Source: Fenollaria timonensis
Lineage (GTDB): Bacteria > Bacillota > Clostridia > Tissierellales > Peptoniphilaceae
Direction of reading: 5' to 3'
Assembly (NCBI RefSeq): GCF_001457835.1
Contig: NZ_LN898229.1
Coordinates: 2,293 to 66,292, forward strand
DNA: 64,000 nucleotides
Positions 20,097 to 51,924 of the stretch are shown here, one piece after another. Numbering within the stretch: the first letter of the stretch is position 1; every line of letters begins with the position of its first letter. A model generated the notes under the pieces. That model ran no database searches. It was not told the origin of the DNA and was given only the letters and a program-made list of their open reading frames with translations. A program made the position numbers and the translations under genes.

Positions 20097-21635
20097 CTAA
20101 TTTATATTAACATTAATTAGGCCACTTGTCAAGTCGTCGTGACTAATGATGAAACATATCCTTTCCTCTCTAGTCTTGTCTAGGTAGTCATATATCTCTT
20201 TCGTCGATTCCTTATCAATGTTTGAGCATATCTCATCCAAAACGAGTACGTCAGGATTTTTTAGTAAGGACCTTGCAAATGATATCTTTTGCTTTTCGCC
20301 TCCAGATAGATTTGAGCCGCCCATAAGTATCTCGTCGTCAAGGGACTTCTTCTCAAGTATGGATCTGATGAATTGATTTTCTTCTAAGTCAATATGGCTG
20401 CCATCATCAAAGTCAAGTAGAAGGTTCTTTCTTAGTGAGCCATTGACTATAGGTGCGTTTTGTACGACATATTCAATACGATCTCTTATGTCTTCGTTTT
20501 TACACTTCTCTATGTCTATGCCATTGACTTTAATTATCTTAACGTCTCTAAACTTTACTAGACCTTTGGCAAATGTACTCTTGCCACTACCATTGGCTCC
20601 GTTGATTCTGACTATGTCGCCCTTCTTAAGCTTTGCCTTTGCATTAAAGTCAAGCTTCATGTCTTTAATATTTATGCCATTGACATCAAGTTCTATATCA
20701 TTAATCACGTCAATGTCTTCACTGCCATCGGCTTCTTTATTAGCTATGAGTTCTTTTTCAAAATCTTTTGCTATATCAAAATTTCTCTTCTCGATATTTG
20801 AATTAGTTATGGTCGATACATTGGCAAAGTAAAGTGGGAAGATTAAAGTAACAAGTATGATTGAGTAAATGCTGCTACTATGTGCCATGTAGTCATAAAC
20901 AACTATTAGTAGTAGAAGCGTTTTTATAATCTCGTTAACGCCTTCTAAGACTACCGTCATCGATTGAGCGTACTCGTTGACGCTCGCCATGCTACCATAA
21001 ACCTTTTCAGTCGCTGGCTCTAGCTTATTGTAAATCACAGACTTATCAGAAAGCTGCTTTACATAGTCGACCTCTTGTATATAAGAAAGTATTTCTTGAA
21101 AGCCCATGCCAGTCATCTTTTGCATCTCTTCGGACTTTTTCTTTAGCATTTTATTTAATAATTTATATCCAAAATAGTTTATAGGCAATGCTAAAAACAT
21201 TATCAAGGCCAAATACAAATTTACATTTGCAATTAGAATCAAGCATACTAAGGCAACTAAAAGTGAGGAGAATATCTGTATGTAGCCACTCATCATGAAG
21301 GAGTAGATGCTGTTAACCGAGATTGATGCCCTCTCTAGTAAGTTCATAGCACCCTTTTCGATTATATGATCGTAATTCATATTGAAAATGTTTTTTATGT
21401 AAGAAATGAAATTGCCTTTGTTATACTCCTTCGCAAACTTTTCTCTAAATATTGTGAATAGTATCGTAAGCAGTTTTGAAGCAAGTATAAGTAAGACTAT
21501 GAATACTATCTTCTTCGTATCAAGCGGCGTGCCATTTGCCTTCCACAGCTGAATGAATATCGGTGCAAGTAGTGCTGATATTGATGAACACAGTATCAAG
21601 ATAAACATGATTATAAAAAATTTTTTGTACTTCAT
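20097..21635 (-). CDS. ABC exporter (fused membrane and ATPase domains), unknown substrate
   Basis: 512 residues. The N-terminal half has about six membrane helices (first near 5-27, then 44-62, 118-140, 142-162, 232-250 and 255-275). The C-terminal ATPase has Walker A NGANGSGKST, signature LSGGEKQK and Walker B VLVLDEICSN, with the H-loop in ISHDD. The nucleotide domain is shorter than usual and the membrane part is rich in isoleucine. It is a half-transporter that would dimerise. It stands alone with its own promoter, whose spacer holds a G9 tract. The substrate cannot be told; surface-active or antimicrobial peptides are one possibility. Confidence 0.85.
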   Translation of the reverse strand: MKYKKFFIIMFILILCSSISALLAPIFIQLWKANGTPLDTKKIVFIVLLILASKLLTILFTIFREKFAKEYNKGNFISYIKNIFNMNYDHIIEKGAMNLLERASISVNSIYSFMMSGYIQIFSSLLVALVCLILIANVNLYLALIMFLALPINYFGYKLLNKMLKKKSEEMQKMTGMGFQEILSYIQEVDYVKQLSDKSVIYNKLEPATEKVYGSMASVNEYAQSMTVVLEGVNEIIKTLLLLIVVYDYMAHSSSIYSIILVTLIFPLYFANVSTITNSNIEKRNFDIAKDFEKELIANKEADGSEDIDVINDIELDVNGINIKDMKLDFNAKAKLKKGDIVRINGANGSGKSTFAKGLVKFRDVKIIKVNGIDIEKCKNEDIRDRIEYVVQNAPIVNGSLRKNLLLDFDDGSHIDLEENQFIRSILEKKSLDDEILMGGSNLSGGEKQKISFARSLLKNPDVLVLDEICSNIDKESTKEIYDYLDKTREERICFIISHDDLTSGLINVNIN

Positions 21636-21683: not shown

Positions 21684-21714
21684 ATTATACCACCCCCCCC
21701 CTAAAAATTTGCAA
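21684..21714 (-). promoter_or_regulatory. ABC exporter promoter with a G9 tract in the spacer
   Basis: On the minus strand -35 TTGCAA (21709-21714) and -10 TATAAT (21684-21689) are separated by 19 bases. That spacer contains nine consecutive G residues (21693-21701). Loss of two G residues would give the optimal 17-base spacing. An upstream TATAAT at 21755-21760 has only a poor -35. The sequence is seen; phase-variable expression is an inference. Confidence 0.7.
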
Positions 21715-42518: not shown

Positions 42519-45500
42519 TTAAATTCCTACGAATATATTAACTATAGCATCAATCTTAGCAAGCACTTCGCCCTTTTTCTTCTCTCTTAGTCCGCCGCGT
42601 CTTGATGTTGGAGGAAGTATACTGTCAAGCTCATCGCCTGCGTAATCAACATATCCCTTGGCGATGGACTTTTCTATAAAACGTTTTGCGTCATTATTAA
42701 GCTTTTCATTGCTTATTAGCTCATCAACATTTTTTTCTTTTTCTTTTCTAGCAAATTCGTAAAAGCTTTCGACTATATCGTCATTAGTCTTTAGCTCAGA
42801 AAGCCTAGTCGAATTGATATAACTCATGATAAGTTCTTCCTTAGCTCTAGTACCAAGACTTGATCTAATAGCTCTTTTAACCTCGGCTTTAAGGACTTCT
42901 ATGTCATCATGTTCCTTGTACTTTTCAAGTATAAGCTTAAGAATGTAATCGAGATTGATCTCATCAGTCTTAAGTAAATCGATTTGAAACTCAACGTCAG
43001 AGAAATCAATATCGGTTTTTTGTGCATCATCATAATTTCTTCTCTTAGTAATATTCTCTCTAATATCAACATAGACGCTCTTCATGTCCTGCATAAGTCT
43101 TTCGGATATAATCTTGTCAACATTTTGAAACTCATCGAAGTTTCTCAAGATGTTCTCAGACTTAAGCAGCTCTCCAAACAATTGAACAAATTCTTTTTTA
43201 TCTGCGTCAAGCTCTATCTCAGTTGGTTCAGGGAATTTTTGAACAAGCTCATTAGATATTTCGATGTAGCCTTTAATCACCTTACCACTATCTTTATCTT
43301 TAAATCCATTCATATAGTCCTCAAAACTATTTTCTAAGATAATGTTTACGCTGTTCTCATCGCCAAAAGTTTTGATGGCGTCCTCAGTCGCTTTCTCTAA
43401 ATCCCTAAAGCAAACAATGTTGCCAAAGGCTTTTACCTTATTTAATATACGATTAGTCCTTGAAAACGCTTGAATAAGTCCGTGATACCTAAGATTTTTA
43501 TCAACAAAAAGTGTATTAAGTGTAGGTGCGTCAAAACCTGTTAAGAACATGCCGACAACGATAAGCAAATCGACCTCTTTCTCCTTAACCCTTCTTGATA
43601 AGTCTTTATAATAGTTTTGGAACTCGCCCGCTTCAGTTGAGTAATTAGTTCCGAAACTTTTGTTATAGTCAGCAATTATCCTGTCCAAAAACTCTTTTGC
43701 ACTCGAGTTCATTGCACTTGGATTGAAATTTTCATCAGCTATTTCTCCGATGGATGCTTGCTCTTCATTAGCTTGAAAGCTAAATATACTAGCGACCTTT
43801 AATTTTTTATCCTCAGGCAAATCCATTTGCTGCTTTTCAAACTCTTCGTAATATAATTTCGCTGCTTCAACGCTTTGTACCGCAAACATCGCATTAAAAC
43901 CAAAATACCTTTTTTCTTTTTTCTCGTAACAAACATTCCTGTGAGTTTTTATGTCATATACATCCAAAATATATTTACTAATCTCAGAAATTCTTTCAGG
44001 ATGAAGAAGCATTTTGCTTTCGTATTTTTTAAGCTCTTTCTCATCGCTTTCTTTTTCAGCCTCTTTGAACTTGCTCTTAATATTGTTGTAGTCAACCTTA
44101 AATTTTAGAACTTTTCCATCACGAATCGCGTCAGTAATTACATACGAGTGCAGCTGAGCACCAAATATAGACGAAGTCGTTTCACCCGTTAAAGAGTTTT
44201 CTGCAAATATTGGCGTACCAGTAAATCCGAATTGGTAGTACTTTTTAAAACTTCTTCTAATATTTTTTTGTGCATCGCCAAATTGTGATCTGTGGCACTC
44301 ATCATATATAAGTACACACTCTTTTTCATAAATCTCATGTTCTGGATATTTTTTAACAAATTCATTAAGCTTTTGAATGGTTGTCACCACTATCCTGTTA
44401 TCATCCTTTTCAATGGATTTCTTTAGCTCTTTAGTATCCTTGCTGCCATTGACAGAGTCCTCTTGAAATTTTTTATACTCATTCATAGTTTGATAGTCCA
44501 AATCTTTTCTGTCAACGACAAAGAAAACTTTATCGATGAAGTCCAAGTCAGTCGCAAGCCTAGCTGTTTTAAATGAAGTTAGCGTTTTACCAGAACCAGT
44601 TGTATGCCAGATAAATCCGCCAGCCGCAGCTGAGCCATAGCTTTTATTTTCATGAGACGATTTAATCTTCCAAAGAATCCTCTCAGTCGCCGCGATTTGA
44701 TATGGCCTCATAATCATAAGAACGTTTTGCGAGTTAAATACACAGTACTTAGTTAAAACCTCTAAGATGACCCTCTTCTCAAAGAAAGTCTTAGTAAAGT
44801 CGACTAAATCGTGTATAGACTTGTTCTTGGCGTCAGCCCACTCACAAGTGAACTCGTAATTATTTTTGTTTCTCTCAAGAGTGTTCGCAAAGTACCTTGT
44901 TAATGTGCCGTTGGATATAACAAAAATTTGTACAAACTTATATAAAGAGCTGTCAGCGTTAAAACTTTCTTTAGAATATCTGTGAATTTCATTAAATGCT
45001 TCCCTTATGTTGACGCCACGCTTTTTAAGCTCGATATGAACTAAAGGTAAGCCATTGACTAGTATAGTCACATCATATCTAGTCTTCTTTTTACCTTCTT
45101 GAGCAAATTGATTCATCACTTGCATATAATTATTATGAATATTTTTCTTATCAATGATTTTAATATTTTTCAAATCACCGTTATCAAATTTAAAGTCGTA
45201 GATGTAGTTCTCTTGAATTTTTCTAGTTTTTTCGACAATACCATCATTAGGCGCATCAAGATACTCACGAAGAAAACGTCTCCACTCGTCGTCAGTAAAT
45301 GAAACCTTATTAAGCTTTTCAATCTTGTCCCTTAAATTCCTGTAAAGGTCCTCATTCGAGCTCGCCTTAAACCTTTCGTAGCCTTGAGAAATTAAATTTT
45401 CAATCAGTTCCCTCTCAAGATCCGCCTCGCTTTGGTATGCCTTGTCATGAGCCGAACTTTCTTTTTCATACTTAGCTAGTATGATGCCGCCCGTCATCTC

Positions 45501-45542
45501 GGCAATGGCAGACGAGCCATAGTTTTTTAATTCTTCGCTCAT
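42519..45542 (-). CDS. hsdR: Type I restriction enzyme R subunit (HsdR)
   Basis: 1007 residues. The N-terminal nuclease has the PD-(D/E)xK pattern DVTILVNGLPLVHIELKKRG. The SF2 motor has Walker A WHTTGSGKT, DECH in IYDECHRSQFG, and motif VI in LIQAFSRTNR. A helical C-terminal domain for complex assembly ends the protein. It translocates and cuts DNA when bound to the HsdM-HsdS complex. No frame break is seen, so R should be functional if S is made. It is 13 bases downstream of hsdS. Confidence 0.96.
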   Translation of the reverse strand: MSEELKNYGSSAIAEMTGGIILAKYEKESSAHDKAYQSEADLERELIENLISQGYERFKASSNEDLYRNLRDKIEKLNKVSFTDDEWRRFLREYLDAPNDGIVEKTRKIQENYIYDFKFDNGDLKNIKIIDKKNIHNNYMQVMNQFAQEGKKKTRYDVTILVNGLPLVHIELKKRGVNIREAFNEIHRYSKESFNADSSLYKFVQIFVISNGTLTRYFANTLERNKNNYEFTCEWADAKNKSIHDLVDFTKTFFEKRVILEVLTKYCVFNSQNVLMIMRPYQIAATERILWKIKSSHENKSYGSAAAGGFIWHTTGSGKTLTSFKTARLATDLDFIDKVFFVVDRKDLDYQTMNEYKKFQEDSVNGSKDTKELKKSIEKDDNRIVVTTIQKLNEFVKKYPEHEIYEKECVLIYDECHRSQFGDAQKNIRRSFKKYYQFGFTGTPIFAENSLTGETTSSIFGAQLHSYVITDAIRDGKVLKFKVDYNNIKSKFKEAEKESDEKELKKYESKMLLHPERISEISKYILDVYDIKTHRNVCYEKKEKRYFGFNAMFAVQSVEAAKLYYEEFEKQQMDLPEDKKLKVASIFSFQANEEQASIGEIADENFNPSAMNSSAKEFLDRIIADYNKSFGTNYSTEAGEFQNYYKDLSRRVKEKEVDLLIVVGMFLTGFDAPTLNTLFVDKNLRYHGLIQAFSRTNRILNKVKAFGNIVCFRDLEKATEDAIKTFGDENSVNIILENSFEDYMNGFKDKDSGKVIKGYIEISNELVQKFPEPTEIELDADKKEFVQLFGELLKSENILRNFDEFQNVDKIISERLMQDMKSVYVDIRENITKRRNYDDAQKTDIDFSDVEFQIDLLKTDEINLDYILKLILEKYKEHDDIEVLKAEVKRAIRSSLGTRAKEELIMSYINSTRLSELKTNDDIVESFYEFARKEKEKNVDELISNEKLNNDAKRFIEKSIAKGYVDYAGDELDSILPPTSRRGGLREKKKGEVLAKIDAIVNIFVGI

Positions 45543-45555
45543 AAAATCACCTCAT

Positions 45556-47061
45556 TTATTTTTCAAATGTCAATAGTTTTTCCCTGTAGTACTCATATTG
45601 TTTTTCACGTAATTCAATCTCGCGCCTTAAGCCCTCAGTAGTTGATTGGCTTAGCGCCTCAAATTTATCAAGAATTGATACAATATATTCTTGAATTGGC
45701 AATGGTGGAATTAATATTTTAATTTTTTCCATATCCTTAGTTGATAGTTCAATAACTTTAACACCTCTTGCCAACATATTCTTTTGTCTTATGAAATAAT
45801 TTGCTCCATTAAATACATGTGACAAATACTTTGGATTTTCATTATGTCTAAATATAGCTGCATGTCCACCAGTTACAACACTTTCATTACCTAAATATGC
45901 CACAGTTTTCATTACATCTTCAATATTTTCAGATGTTTTTGCAATTACTAAATCGCCAGTATAAACTTTTTTAAGCTTCTCTGCATTTTGCACAGTTACT
46001 TTCACAATTGGGTTTCTTACACACAAATTATATCTAGTATATATATGTCCATAATGGATTGCTCCAACACTTCCTTTTTCGTTAAATATACTCTTAGGCA
46101 TTCCCTTTCCATTTTCAAACGTGCCTATCTTACCTAATGATTTATATCTAAGTTCAAAAACTTTTGCTCCAACTAATTTGCCTGCTTGGGTCAATAGTCT
46201 TATGTAGTCACTACTTAATACTTGGTACCCCCCCCTAGTACGTTCAGTGTCGAATGTTAAGAGCTTTTCGCGGTAGTGTTCATATTGTTTTTGCCTTTTT
46301 TCAATCTCATCTGGAAGTAGTCCACTTACATTTTGAGTAAGCTCTTGAAATTTATCAAGAATTTCAACAACTTGATCTTGTATATAGATGTTTGGCAATG
46401 GAATTTTATAATTATCTGTAACCCCAGTTGCAATTTGTGGTAATTTTCCACTTATTGCATTATCCCTAAAATATTTTAAATTATTTTTTAAAATATAATA
46501 TAAATATTTAATATTTAGCTTGCTCTCATCTAAACTTGAATAAGACCACATTTCATTCTTATGCGTAAATTCTTTATCATAATATTCAAAGTCAATATTA
46601 CCTCTAGACTTAACAATGACGCTTGGCTTATTAATAACATTTTCTTCACCAACTTCATCTTTATTAAGCATAGCGCTTGTATTGCCCCCAGCAAATACTT
46701 TTACGCTTGAAAAATTATTATTTAGCTCATTCATTTCTTTAGCAGTTATCTTAATTCCTCTTTGTCTTAGACATATGTCAGTAATTTTTTCATAAGATAA
46801 ATACCTTGTGTTATCAGATTTATAATAGTTAATTATTGCTTTATTTAAGTACTCTTCACTCAATAATTTGTCTCTATAAAACTCATACTGTTTATTTCTT
46901 AAATTAACTTCTTTTTGTAATTCTTGTTTAATATTTTCTTTATAATTAGTAAATTTATCAAGATAATTTACAATTTTTTCTTGTGTTTTTAATGATGGAA
47001 TTGGAATTAAAATATTTTTTATAATACTTAAGTTTAAACTAGTAAGCGCACCTTGACCCAT
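45556..47061 (-). pseudogene. hsdS: hsdS, 3' fragment: specificity modules 2 and 3
   Basis: Open frame of 501 codons left after IS30 insertion. It begins with the tail of recognition module 1 and its conserved helix (ending RNKQYEFYRDKLL), then a full module 2 (about residues 85-270, ending RQKQYEHYREKLLTF) and a full module 3 (about 290-499, ending REKQYEYYREKLLTF). A G8 tract at 46228-46235 lies between modules 2 and 3 and keeps them in frame. No ribosome site precedes the first ATG, so expression is uncertain, but two complete modules could in principle form a working S subunit. Confidence 0.85.
46228..46235 (-). repeat. G8 homopolymer inside hsdS
   Basis: Eight consecutive G residues on the coding strand encode part of Arg-Gly-Gly at the border between module 2 and module 3. 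With seven G the frame meets TAA after GGTKY; with nine it meets TAG after GGVPSIK. Only eight keep module 3 fused. Confidence 0.9.
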
Positions 47062-47086: not shown

Positions 47087-47099
47087 GATATATAATAAT
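47087..47099. repeat. 13-bp target-site duplication, left side of IS copy 2
   Basis: GATATATAATAAT abuts the left IS end and is repeated exactly at 48365-48377. Removing the IS and one repeat restores a continuous hsdS frame. Confidence 0.92.
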
Positions 47100-47184
47100 T
47101 ATAAATTGCAACAATAAGTTAGCCACCCAGACATCATATAGACTAAATGTATAGTATAGCTTAAAAGTATTTATTTTTATTAAA

Positions 47185-48264
47185 CTAGATACTTTTAAGC
47201 TGTTTTATTTCCTTTATGAACTCTTCTTTTGCAGTTTTGTAATTAAAGATTTTTCTTGGCAAATTATTCATCCACTCGTTTATTCTGTATATTTTTTCTT
47301 TTGATACTTCTTCTATTGATGTGCCTTTTTGTATAAATCTTCGTATTAATTTATGTTGACATTCACTAGTTCCTCTTTCCCATGATGTATATGGATGACA
47401 AAAATATATATCTACATATTCTGCTAATTCTGATAAGCTTGAAAATTCTGAACCATTATCTGATGTTATACTTTTAAATATTTCTTTGTTTAACTGCGCA
47501 TTATCTTTTAAGAATTTAAGTCCAATGTCTACTGCATCGGGTGTTTTTCCATGTATTTTTATCAGCTTTTCATATCTTGTTTTTCTTTCTACTAATGTAA
47601 GTAGTACTGGATCTGTCTTTTTCTTTTTACCTATAACTGTATCTATTTCCCAGTGGCCGAATTCTTCTCTTGTTTGTATTTTATCTGGTCTTTCTTCTAT
47701 GGATATGCCAAGCTTTTTCTTGTTTTGTCTTGTTCTTCTTGTGCTATTTTTGTTTTTTCTCTTTACTTTTTCTAGTAGATCTATATTTTTTGTTTTCATT
47801 AGTGACTTATTTATCCAGTTGTAGAGGCTTTTTGTTGATGGTATTTCTGATGATGGAAAGAGTCTATTTGCTTTTGCGTATCCAACACATACATCTGGAG
47901 ACCATTTATCTTTTAACATTTTATTGTCTGCCCATTTAAGAAATTCGACTATATCTATATATTTTGGTCTTCTTCCGCAAGAAGATCTATTGTTTATATA
48001 TACCTCATAATTAGTTAAGGCAAAGTATTTTTCATCGTAGTAAGTATATGTTTTGTTATTACTTTTTATTATTCTCTTTTGCTTTACTGTGCCTTTCTTT
48101 ATTGCGTTGTTTATTGTCTGCGGGGCTCTATTTAGCCTTCTTGCTATCTCTCTGTTGCTATGTCCATCTATTTTCCATGCCTGTATTAATGACATTTCAT
48201 GTAGTGATAGATGTGAATTTTTCTTGCGTTCTGTAAATTCTATGGTATAATTTATATGAGTCAT
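47185..48264 (-). CDS. IS30-family transposase (copy 2)
   Basis: 359 residues, identical to the first copy, with helix-turn-helix and DDE core intact. The start at 48264 has GGAGG five bases before it. Being co-directional with the hsd operon, it is exposed to read-through transcription from the hsdM promoter, where the start-hiding inverted repeat would matter. Confidence 0.95.
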   Translation of the reverse strand: MTHINYTIEFTERKKNSHLSLHEMSLIQAWKIDGHSNREIARRLNRAPQTINNAIKKGTVKQKRIIKSNNKTYTYYDEKYFALTNYEVYINNRSSCGRRPKYIDIVEFLKWADNKMLKDKWSPDVCVGYAKANRLFPSSEIPSTKSLYNWINKSLMKTKNIDLLEKVKRKNKNSTRRTRQNKKKLGISIEERPDKIQTREEFGHWEIDTVIGKKKKTDPVLLTLVERKTRYEKLIKIHGKTPDAVDIGLKFLKDNAQLNKEIFKSITSDNGSEFSSLSELAEYVDIYFCHPYTSWERGTSECQHKLIRRFIQKGTSIEEVSKEKIYRINEWMNNLPRKIFNYKTAKEEFIKEIKQLKSI

Positions 48265-48325
48265 GTGTACCTCCGTATAGTTGTTTTTTTGTTTGTTACT
48301 AATACTATACCATATGTACACATGA
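48261..48325 (-). promoter_or_regulatory. IS transposase promoter and inverted repeat (copy 2)
   Basis: Same arrangement as in copy 1: a 10-bp inverted repeat with arms at 48316-48325 and 48261-48270 flanks the TATAGT -10, and the downstream arm covers the start codon. Confidence 0.6.
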
Positions 48326-48364
48326 TTTTTTTATTTGGTGGCTAAGTTAATTATACAATCTTCC

Positions 48365-48377
48365 GATATATAATAAT
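48365..48377. repeat. 13-bp target-site duplication, right side of IS copy 2
   Basis: Exact repeat of 47087-47099; part of the original hsdS coding sequence. Confidence 0.92.
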
Positions 48378-48738
48378 ATAAATATTTATAATTTAATATT
48401 TTTTCATCATTTTCAATCGCTGCTACTGATTGATTACAAGAAGTGTGAAATTCAACAACTGCACTTCTTCCTACTGTAGCTCCAGTCATTGCTAAAACAA
48501 CACTGTTAGGTCTAATCATTTTGGCTGAAGATTTATTTAAACCTTCTTCAGTAATATTTCTTTCAGAAGATTTAATTACATTAAAATTTATTTCCCCTGA
48601 TCTTATCCATGGAATGTCCCCATCATAGTATGAGCTAACAGAAGTTTTTGGTGTTCCACCTGCAAAACAATTAGCAACATCCCCAAGCTTTTTCCATTCA
48701 ACTTTTTCATTTTTTAGCATTTCATCTATTTTACTCAT
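48365..48738 (-). pseudogene. hsdS: hsdS, 5' fragment: first part of specificity module 1
   Basis: About 125 codons of hsdS before the insertion, covering most of recognition module 1 (WKKLGDVANCFAGGTPKT, IPWIRSGEINF, VVLAMTGATVGRSAVV). The frame runs a short way into the IS and stops at about 48331. ATG 48738 is chosen because AAAGGG lies eight bases upstream; the open frame reaches 48759 only through a TTG. Joined to the 3' fragment with one target repeat removed, the gene gives an uninterrupted 634-residue protein. Confidence 0.9.
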
Positions 48739-49741
48739 CTTTACAACCCTTTTCTGCAATTTGATTTATATTTTTTATCTCATCTAAATAATCCTTCTCA
48801 ACTTGTGTTAATGTTTTGTTTTTATACTTAATATATTCTGCTTTAACTTTCTTCTCCATTTGACTTCTTGATATCTTTCCCTTATCTGGAAGTAAATCTT
48901 CGCCATTTACTTTCAATATATCATAAGTATAGTCAATCCAATCATTCATAGTCATAGGAATCTCTTTCTTTGCTCTTACCTCAGCAAAATCTAAATAACC
49001 CGACACTAAAAGGTTCAACTTGCTTAGCTCATCTTCTTTTAAATAGTTTTTTGCAATCTTTGCTTCACTTAGAGTTGGTAGTTCTCCTTTAAAGTTAGTA
49101 AGACCCATAAAAACTTTTTCTGAATCTACTCTTTCAACAATCATCTCACTTGCTGTACTTTGATGTACCGCATAGTGCATCATATTTTGAATAGTAGCAA
49201 AAAACCACTTTGCCTCATCTTTATGTGCATCATAATCTATGCTTGTTGCGAATATATCAAGAATTTGTCTATAGAAAACTTTTTCAGATGATCTAATATC
49301 TCTAATTCTTTCAAGAAGCTCTTTAAAATATTTCCCACCACCAAAGTTTTTTAGCTTATCATCATCCATTGCAAATCCCTTGATAATATATTCTTTTAAT
49401 ACTGTTGTCGCATATTGTCTAAATTGTACACCACGAACAGACCTTACTCTATAGCCAATTGCTAAAATCATATCTAAAGAATAATAAGCTACGTTATGTT
49501 CTTGGGTTTTTTCAGTCATAGCGCCATGTTGAGTGGTTGTCAACTTATAGTTGACAACCACTTTTTCATCTAATTCACCATCATTGAAGATATTATTTAT
49601 ATGCTTACTAATATTTTGTTTAGTAGTTTGAAAAAGTTCAGCGATTTCATTTTGATTTAACCAAACTGTTCCGTCATCATATTTTAAATTAATTTTTGAC
49701 TTACCATCTTCAGTATTATATATTATAATTTGATTATTCAT
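48731..49741 (-). CDS. RhuM-family protein inside the hsd operon
   Basis: 336 residues. The N-terminal part has a winged-helix-like segment ([23 protein letters not shown]), followed by the family signature [27 protein letters not shown]. RhuM proteins were named from a Salmonella gene and often sit in type I restriction-modification loci; their activity is unknown. The start overlaps the hsdM end and the stop overlaps the hsdS start, so it is co-expressed with them. A perfect 13-bp inverted repeat lies inside the gene. A regulatory or antirestriction-guard role is speculation. Confidence 0.88.
49532..49562. repeat. Perfect inverted repeat inside the rhuM gene
   Basis: Arms AGTGGTTGTCAAC (49532-49544) and GTTGACAACCACT (49550-49562) are perfectly complementary around loop TTATA. 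On the plus strand a run of five T follows, giving a terminator-like shape antisense to the gene. It encodes the [10 protein letters not shown] part of the protein, so protein constraint may not fully explain the symmetry. Confidence 0.85.
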
Positions 49742-51311
49742 CTTCAAGCTCCTTAACTATCGCATCTATCGAAGCTCTTAGCTCATCTATCTTTTTAACG
49801 GTCTCTTCTAGCTCTTTATTAAGTACTTTTATATTGATTTTCTCTCTAGTGTCTTCTTTTTCAACGTAAGTCGAAACTGACAGGTTATAGTCGTTCTCTT
49901 CCACTTCCTTAACATCGACGTATCTAGAGAAGTGTTTTACTTCTTTTCTATCGACAAACTCGTTTAAAATATTGTCAATATTTTTATCTTCTAAAATATT
50001 GTTATTTGTTTCTTTTTTAAATTCTTTTGAAGCATCTATAAATAAAATTTTGTTCTCCGTCTTATTCTTCGCCATAACTAAAACGCATGTGGCGATGGAT
50101 GTTCCGAAGAACAGGTTTTCTGGTAGCTGTATAACGCAGTCGATGAAGTTATTGTCAACTAAATACTTACGGATTGTTTTTTCGGCACCTTTACGATAAA
50201 AAATGCCTGGGAAGCAAACTATGGCTGCTCTACCCTTACTTGAAAGGTAGCTAAGCGCGTGCATGATGAAGGCGTAGTCAGCGTATGACTTAGGCGCAAG
50301 CTTGCCTGCTGGTGCAAAACGCACATCATTAATAAGTGTCGGATCCTTGTCACCTACCCACTTAATTGAGTATGGCGGATTTGAGACTATGGCATCGAAT
50401 GGCTTCTCATCGTTATGAAGCGGATTTAATAAAGTATCTCCTCTTTTGATGGAAAAGTTATTGTAATTAACATTGTGCAAAAACATATTCATACGGCAAA
50501 GGTTAAAGTTTGTCATGTTTATCTCTTGACCAAAGAATCCCTCGTCTATTATATGTGCATTAAACTGCTTTTTCATTTGAAGTAATAGACTCCCACTGCC
50601 ACATGTAGGATCATACACCTTGTTAATGGCTGTCTTGCCTTGCATAACAAGTCTTGCGAGTAATTTTGAAACTGTTTGTGGCGTAAAAAATTCTCCGCCT
50701 GATTTTCCTGCGTTACTTGCATAATTAGAGATTAAATAAAGGTAGGCATCACCAAAGGCGTCTATATCGTTATCTTCGAAGCGGCCAAAATTTATGCTGT
50801 TTATACCATTCAAAATATCTCTAAGCCTTTTATTTTTTTCGGCAACTGTCGCACCAAGTTTATTGCTTGTAGTGTCAACGTCTTCGAATAGTCCTTTTAT
50901 GTCATCTTCTGACCTAAAACCTATGGCACTTGCTTCTATGGCTTTAAAAATATTAGCAAGGTCTGTGTTAAGGTCTTCATTAGTGCCCGCATCTTTAACG
51001 ACATTTTCAAATAATTGGCTTGGCAATATAAAGAAGCCTTTGTCTTCAACTGTATTTGGTCTAAAATACTTTTCTGCCTCTTCGTCACTTATCTGTGCAT
51101 AATCAAAGTCTGGGTCGCCTGCTTCGTGCTCAGCATTGTTAAAAAATTCTGTGATATTCTCTGATATAAAGCGATAAAAAAGTATGCCTAGTATGTATTG
51201 TTTAAAGTCCCAGCCATCGACAGCACCACGCACATTGTCTGCGATGGACCAGATCTTCCTGTATAGCTCTGCTCTTTGAGATGTCTCGTTATTCTCTCTA
51301 ATCTCTGCCAT
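49734..51311 (-). CDS. hsdM: Type I DNA methyltransferase subunit (HsdM)
   Basis: 525 residues from ATG 51311, which has AGGAGAG four bases upstream; the frame is open to 51470 but the added part crosses the promoter and terminator. The HsdM N-terminal helical domain ([25 protein letters not shown]) is followed by the N6-adenine methylase core with the SAM motif [13 protein letters not shown] and catalytic NPPYSIKW. A coiled C-terminus binds HsdS. It forms the methyltransferase with HsdS and appears intact. Confidence 0.96.
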
Positions 51312-51351
51312 AATTCTCTCCTTATAATTTAATAAAGTTCTACACAAATCA

Positions 51352-51360
51352 ATTATATCA
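51352..51360 (-). promoter_or_regulatory. Extended -10 promoter of the hsd operon
   Basis: TGATATAAT on the minus strand about 40 bases before the hsdM ATG, just downstream of the folA terminator. The following TTGATTTGTGTAGAA partly resembles the element shared by ktrB and FHA. Confidence 0.55.
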
Positions 51361-51387
51361 CATATAGCTAAGTTTTTACATAAAAAA

Positions 51388-51418
51388 AACGAACCGTGGA
51401 ATATTTCCTTGGTTCGTT
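51388..51418 (-). terminator. Terminator of the chr-pta-folA operon
   Basis: AACGAACC/GGTTCGTT outer stem with an inner GGAA/TTCC pairing, followed by a run of eight T on the minus strand. It marks the upstream edge of the hsd locus. Confidence 0.88.
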
Positions 51419-51441
51419 TAATATATAAGATTTTAGTATTA

Positions 51442-51924
51442 TTATTTTCTTTTGTATCTTCTATACTCAAATTTCATATCTTGATAAGAGTATTCTTCGC
51501 TTGTTTGAACTAGCTCAAATGCTTCGTCCTTATCGAGGTTTCTCATCACAGTATCATAAGGCTCGAAGTCTTTCTTTATAAATGTAATCTCTGCCTCGTC
51601 CACCTTATCTATGAGCTGGTCTATAAGGCTTGCGCCGCCAACTAAGAAAATTTTCTTATCTGAAAATTTTTCTTTTATCATCTCTCTTAAATCGTCAAGG
51701 CTATGAGCAATGTGAGCTCCCTCCATCTCCTTAAGTGAGCGTGATACGATGATCGTTTCTCTGCCAGGAAGTGCGCCTGTCGCGTCAAAGGTTTTTCGTC
51801 CCATGACTAAGACGCCGCCCATGGTCATCTCTTTAAAGTGTTTGAGGTCCTCGGGTATCCTTGTTAGCATGTCTCCTTTGTAGCCAATCGCCCATTTGGC
51901 GTCGACTGCCATTACGAGTATCAT
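51442..51924 (-). CDS. folA: Dihydrofolate reductase
   Basis: 160 residues. Family motifs are [31 protein letters not shown] at the start, [11 protein letters not shown] and [14 protein letters not shown]. It reduces dihydrofolate with NADPH. Its ATG overlaps the pta stop by one base (TAATG). It ends its operon; no thyA or other folate gene is next to it. Confidence 0.95.

Follow-up and report, generated by a model that had tools for sequence, protein, structure and literature searches.

Simple repeats have been reported in about 7.9% of hsdS genes (PMC7394358). In the NgoAV system of N. gonorrhoeae (hsdS1/hsdS2), a poly-G switch changes the recognition sequence from GCAN8TGC to GCAN7STCA, and the downstream half is inactive alone (PMC9577141). 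The hsdS gene described here is like NgoAV in that a poly-G tract lies at a module border of a Type I hsdS and one reading frame fuses a further module; the two differ in that NgoAV passes from one module to two, and the intact form of the present gene from two to three. Our survey recovered a relative in L114 (G8, split), and likewise L112 (Haemophilus haemolyticus). In the Hpy99XV system of H. pylori J99 (JHP1422/JHP1423), TRD1+TRD3 and TRD2+TRD3 each give a specificity (PMC3936762). Three TRDs in one S chain are common to Hpy99XV and the joined form of the present gene, but in Hpy99XV TRD2 is the same as TRD3 and a border repeat was not reported, whereas the TRD2 and TRD3 of the present gene are unlike each other and a slippage repeat gates the third.

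Among the Type IC systems, EcoR124II/EcoDXXI are close to the present one: they include the closest solved S subunit by sequence, and the EcoR124_C domain is found in its HsdR. Their S subunits have two modules, and variation of the TAEL repeat (12 bp) keeps the frame and alters the spacer, not the number of modules. Type IC S subunits of one module, or truncated by Tn5 or by deletion, work as homodimers and recognise palindromic sites (PMC3874165). In the H. pylori Type IIG enzymes Hpy99XIV/HpyAXVI, a homopolymer frameshift likewise adds a C-terminal recognition domain and changes the site (PMC3936762); these enzymes are single chains, however, and the added domain is a partial TRD rather than a whole S module. 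Inverting hsdS genes of the SpnIII type (PMC7394358) also change Type I specificity reversibly within a clone, by recombination between inverted repeats where the present gene would use slippage.

The window (the whole stretch of 64,000 nucleotides that was analysed) carries the following genes in an operon-like row on the minus strand, as identified by profile matches: hsdM, encoding the Type I methyltransferase subunit (49734-51470; TIGR00497), a RhuM-family gene (48731-49747; PF13310), hsdS (PF01420) and hsdR, encoding the restriction subunit (42519-45542; TIGR00348/EcoR124_C). Because hsdM, hsdS and hsdR stand together and hsdR has an EcoR124_C domain, the locus was assigned to a Type IC-like system. 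The RhuM-family gene matches the PADLOC candidate family PDC-S05, and an ORF of similar length occupies the same place in P. lacrimalis (L063) and Bisgaardia (L067).

The hsdS gene is severed by an insertion sequence (IS). The 5' fragment (48331-48759, minus strand; one PF01420 stretch) holds the N-terminal part of module 1, and the ORF 3' of the IS (45556-47061, minus strand; PF01420 in three stretches) is arranged as CR1 - TRD2 - CR2 - G8 - TRD3 - CR3. Module 2 (46252-46803) and module 3 (45565-46155), both on the minus strand, were called with the module HMM, and each consists of a TRD and a conserved helix ending YREKLLTF. With G8, this ORF retains modules 2 and 3 and the helix of module 1, and so contains the two complete TRDs and two conserved helices of a Type I S subunit. 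The nearest solved S subunit by sequence was that of EcoR124 (7bst, E 8e-57), and Foldseek searches with AlphaFold models returned known S subunits. The alternation of TRDs and helices was kept in the AlphaFold models of the window S and of a relative, of which the global arrangement is unreliable (pTM 0.45 and 0.55) and gives no firm pairing of the modules; at the tract, both models have a low-confidence linker (residues 264-303 and 391-402, respectively).

The G8 homopolymer (46228-46235, minus strand; C8 on the plus strand) lies between the second conserved helix, which ends in YREKLLTF, and the third recognition domain, at the module 2/3 border where an earlier note on this DNA, made from the sequence alone, had placed it. 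The ORF 45556-47061 was translated with the tract length altered by script: G8 gave 501 aa, G7 gave 281 aa with the C-terminus GGTKY, and G9 gave 283 aa with the C-terminus GGVPSIK. Both early stops named in the earlier note were reproduced, and G8 was found to read on into the third module as the note had said, module 3 being in frame only with this length. Among the tract lengths G6-G10, G8 alone left the following ~220 codons open. The gene therefore shares with NgoAV a non-triplet simple repeat within the ORF at a module border, other lengths that stop soon past the tract, and one length class that fuses the next module. A role of G8 as a frame switch at the module border is supported. In the 64-kb window, C runs of lengths 1-5 were counted 8764, 1779, 252, 33 and 5 times, runs of 6 or 7 were absent, and there was one run of 8 and one of 9; a chance origin of the G8 run was ruled out by these counts together with the survey of relatives described below.

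Module 1 is interrupted by an IS30-type element of 1265 bp (47100-48364, minus strand; NF033563 transpos_IS30), which encodes an IS30-family transposase of 378 aa (47185-48321, minus strand; NF033563, 239 bits against a cut-off of 80) and has imperfect ends sharing TTAGCCACC. Comparison of the flanks revealed a 13-bp target-site duplication, GATATATAATAAT, with its left copy at 47087-47099 and its right copy at 48365-48377. The genome contains 22 full-length, near-identical copies of this element, each flanked on both sides by a ~13-bp repeat of an AT-rich target. The usual target duplication of the IS30 family is 2-3 bp, and the 13 bp observed here is longer. A further copy (L010 7659-8795) is located directly upstream of another methyltransferase gene, which is accompanied by a two-module S gene (361 aa) at whose border no repeat was noticed.

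What is left upstream of the IS is the beginning of TRD1; its end, the helix, module 2, the tract and module 3 lie downstream. When the flanks were joined with one copy of the duplication, three modules came to lie in a single uninterrupted frame of 643 codons, or 634 counted from its first ATG. The earlier note had expected an S subunit of about 415 residues with G7 or G9: this holds for the joined flanks (634 aa with G8, about 414 with G7) and fails for the gene as assembled, which gives the 281 and 283 aa reported above. Its proposal of a switch between two and three modules likewise stands for the gene family and for the joined flanks, and not for this assembly. With module 1 split by the IS, the ORF that survives encodes two modules when the tract is G8 and one when it is G7 or G9; a one-to-two-module change of the NgoAV kind was found only for this truncated ORF, and the intact allele passes from two to three. 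Three TRDs in one chain, as in Hpy99XV, are missing from the assembled gene and are present with the joined flanks and in eight other fused loci of the survey.

Relatives were collected in two ways: with the S protein as query in a named genome collection and in 130 genomes of the family, which is that of Peptoniphilus, and with a 45-residue segment of the second helix as query in genomes from the class (391) and the phylum (398). Modules were called with an HMM built from 33 modules, and each border was scanned for perfect tandem repeats. The three-module set comprised 23 non-redundant loci, the window locus included; L056 (extra helix), L163 (frame-broken module) and L038 (cut by a contig end) were left out.

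A repeat was present at the module 2/3 border in 23/23 three-module loci and at the sole border in 9/95 two-module loci (Fisher p = 1.6e-17, a value that serves only as a guide because the loci are related). This association was not built into the sampling, since the loci were found by protein similarity and not by their repeats. At the module 1/2 border of the same three-module genes, a repeat was found in 2/23, and the borders of two-module genes were mostly without repeats (median gap 10 nt). The units at the 2/3 border were 1, 2, 4, 5 or 7 nt long, and units of 3, 6 or 9 nt never occurred in the 23 loci. The repeats were G8, AG x5 to x12 and AC x10.5 and x14.5 (1-2-nt units); AGAC/GACA/CAGA x5.8 to x21, AAGC x3.5, GAAC x12.8 and CGAA x14.5 (4-nt units); GAACC x7.8 and CAACG x19.8 (5-nt units); and GCACGCC x3.4 and x6.4 and GCAAGCC x2.6 (7-nt units). 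The place was fixed while the unit turned over, with 13 unit strings as written (rotations counted apart). Nine of the three-module loci were fused and 14 split, near the one third expected of a random frame. The comparison of these sequences supports the two-to-three-module switch as the general architecture of this hsdS gene family.

The three-module arrangement was also found outside Clostridia, in Bisgaardia hudsonensis (Pasteurellaceae), and a border repeat of the same kind (AGCA x8) in two Ureaplasma loci. This S gene was absent from both other genomes of the genus that were searched. The viral contigs searched yielded only two relatives, both distant; 468 plasmid records carried related S genes, and in none of them did a single place cover 80% of the three-module query. 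Among the nine repeats at two-module borders, three are probably due to chance. The other six, judging by their sequences, resemble switches from one module to two: G tracts in L045, L057, L112 (H. haemolyticus) and L114 (N. gonorrhoeae), a C10 tract in L116 and a CGGAA repeat in L130. Border 1/2 repeats (G12, G7, AG x8) with an NgoAV-type look were seen within the same bacterial family in L045 (G100), L057 (G081), L276, L281 and L284. In the S gene of L193 (G362:C40), border 1/2 has an in-frame G9 tract and border 2/3 an out-of-frame AGAC x14.5 repeat; as read from its sequence, this gene could yield one-, two- and three-module forms.

Alleles that are nearly identical around the repeat differed in its copy number: (AG)12 in G101 is in frame and opens a frame of 652 codons, (AG)10 in G099 is out of frame, and the ~50 bp past the repeat are identical in the two. 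The repeats of P. gorbachii and P. vaginalis are three heptamers apart, with the frame kept. For module 3 of L039 and L038, both split, dN was 0.034 and dS 0.494 (ratio 0.07), and dN/dS of module 3 was 0.07-0.19 across all pairs with unsaturated dS. These ratios point to strong purifying selection on module 3, which remains an open frame, even in out-of-frame alleles (dN/dS 0.07-0.18), which counts for a living switch, since a module that was never translated would drift. In the split alleles examined, the first start codon in the frame of module 3 was mostly inside the recognition domain, and Shine-Dalgarno-like matches were rare among the candidate starts; fusion is therefore probably the main route by which module 3 is expressed.

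A second S gene of the same genome, unrelated to the window hsdS, belongs to a BcgI-like Type IIB system (G000:C7 485741-487383; L009 5742-7393). This S gene has two modules (371 aa) and ends in (TA)9, and a third module (186 codons) follows in another frame. Its relatives were fused with (TA)14, (AT)11.5 or (AT)9.5 and split with (AT)9 to 12.5, G9 or G10. G078 and G079 were 100% identical over the 329 aligned positions surrounding the tract, the only difference being G9 versus G10. A repeat-gated third module thus occurs in two families of S genes. When the ten BcgI-like loci were added to the hsdS set, 12/33 three-module loci were fused (p = 0.71 against one third).

Taken in full, the reading we judge very probable is that the hsdS gene of this Type IC-like system is a contingency (slipped-strand) switch in which the repeat between modules 2 and 3 gates module 3. 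Four other explanations were weighed, and the one to be taken most seriously, though we find it doubtful, is that the IS30-type insertion inactivated hsdS, so that the locus gives no functional S subunit and G8 is the relic of an ancestral switch. The position of the IS within module 1, with its 13-bp duplication, and the end of the upstream fragment at 142 aa (the final codons before the stop being IS-derived) speak for such a loss. So does the ATG at 47061, the sole ATG near the start of the ORF, which on inspection of the sequence has no clear Shine-Dalgarno; promoter-like sites in the region were at chance level (15 found, 12.9 expected). The downstream ORF is nevertheless intact and in frame with G8, with two complete recognition domains and three conserved helices, and Type IC S subunits deleted at the N-terminus or truncated by transposons have been reported active (PMC3874165). 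Given the broken module 1 and the poor ribosome-binding site, this strain may carry a silent switch; should any translation of the truncated gene take place, the tract would now select between a product of modules 2 and 3 and a product of module 2 only.

It is unlikely that module 3 serves chiefly as a stored cassette for recombination into the active gene, the repeat being a recombination junction rather than a frame switch. Exchange of modules does occur in sequence comparisons: G108 and G049 share 99.2% identity across the 1200 bp that precede the repeat and have a different module 3, and recognition domains are shuffled between relatives, with one module 3 resembling module 2 of another genome (64%; L067/L194). 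A junction, however, would require neither a repeat nor unit lengths that avoid multiples of three, 9/23 alleles are fused in frame, and inspection of the 64-kb window revealed no further hsdS copy, inverted or otherwise, next to the locus. That the length of G8 is an assembly or sequencing error is very improbable: homopolymers of eight are error-prone, but G8 is the sole length from 6 to 10 that leaves the next ~220 codons open, such tracts occur 15 times in the genome, and relatives have other kinds of repeat at this position. That the tract is merely neutral sequence within a flexible linker is hardly credible, even though AlphaFold places it in a linker of low predicted confidence. A neutral linker repeat should favour units of 3, 6 and 9 nt, which are absent; the association with a third module (23/23 versus 9/95) and the two-module borders, which have a median gap of 10 nt and mostly no repeat, also speak against it.

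Under the slipped-strand reading, only one of the three length classes of the border repeat leaves module 3 in frame. For the intact gene, the in-frame state would give a three-module S subunit (TRD1-TRD2-TRD3) and the other two states an ordinary two-module S subunit (TRD1-TRD2); slippage would add or remove a recognition module and thereby methylation targets. The IS30-type element split module 1 later. In the IS-split gene, translated presumably from the ATG 3' of the IS, G8 would lead to an S subunit with TRD2 and TRD3, and G7 or G9 to a half-S with TRD2 only, which could pair with itself. We infer that slipped-strand mispairing alters the tract, and thus the S protein, in this species, and, by analogy with NgoAV, Hpy99XV and the truncated S subunits of EcoDXXI/EcoR124, that the recognition sequence would change with the tract. 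The two motifs obtained from one S subunit in Hpy99XV suggest how a three-module S subunit might act, and the cut Type IC S subunits suggest that, of the IS-truncated forms, G8 would use TRD2 and TRD3, and G7 or G9 would use TRD2 twice.

Searches of the genome gave 15 poly-G tracts of 8 or more in 1.74 Mb (the G+C content of the window is 37%). Several are in or beside long ORFs that resemble surface or secreted proteins, and others are in intergenic promoter-like spacers; given these positions, the organism seems to use poly-G tracts widely. The tracts of L021 and L027 lie in surface/secreted-like long ORFs that are open, and those of L019 and L022 in similar ORFs that are out of frame. In the window, G9 on the minus strand (21693-21701) is located between TTGCAA and TATAAT (19-bp spacer), upstream of an ABC-transporter-like gene (20097-21635), and its setting suggests that it may be a promoter-strength switch. 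Intergenic G9 tracts are found in similar sequence between TTGATT and TATGAT in L024 and L025, like the tract at 21693.

Switching of S genes by poly-G (NgoAV) and a fixed S subunit with three TRDs (Hpy99XV) are already known. In the open-access literature searched, no paper was found on a slippage repeat that gates a third module (a two-to-three switch). On balance, we lean towards regarding the slippage-gated third module as a general device that arose repeatedly and is shared by at least two S-subunit families, Type IC-like and BcgI-like Type IIB, across several bacterial lineages; the repeat unit has been exchanged many times, and its position between modules 2 and 3 has stayed fixed. A clone could then move back and forth, with no recombination, between a single bipartite specificity and a combined or different set, and selection would keep the silent module intact because it is often switched on. 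The survey supplies named carriers of the arrangement: Peptoniphilus gorbachii (in frame in DSM 21461), P. vaginalis, P. lacrimalis (out of frame in DSM 7455) and Bisgaardia hudsonensis. It also carries a warning for annotation, as an apparent pair of a two-module S gene and an orphan one-module S gene behind it may be a single gene caught in the other phase. The known routes of phase-variable methylation are on/off switching, the one-to-two-module change (NgoAV) and hsdS inversion. Gating of a third module by a repeat would add another route, in which the system need not go off and which, by the precedent of Hpy99XV, may add a second recognition site.
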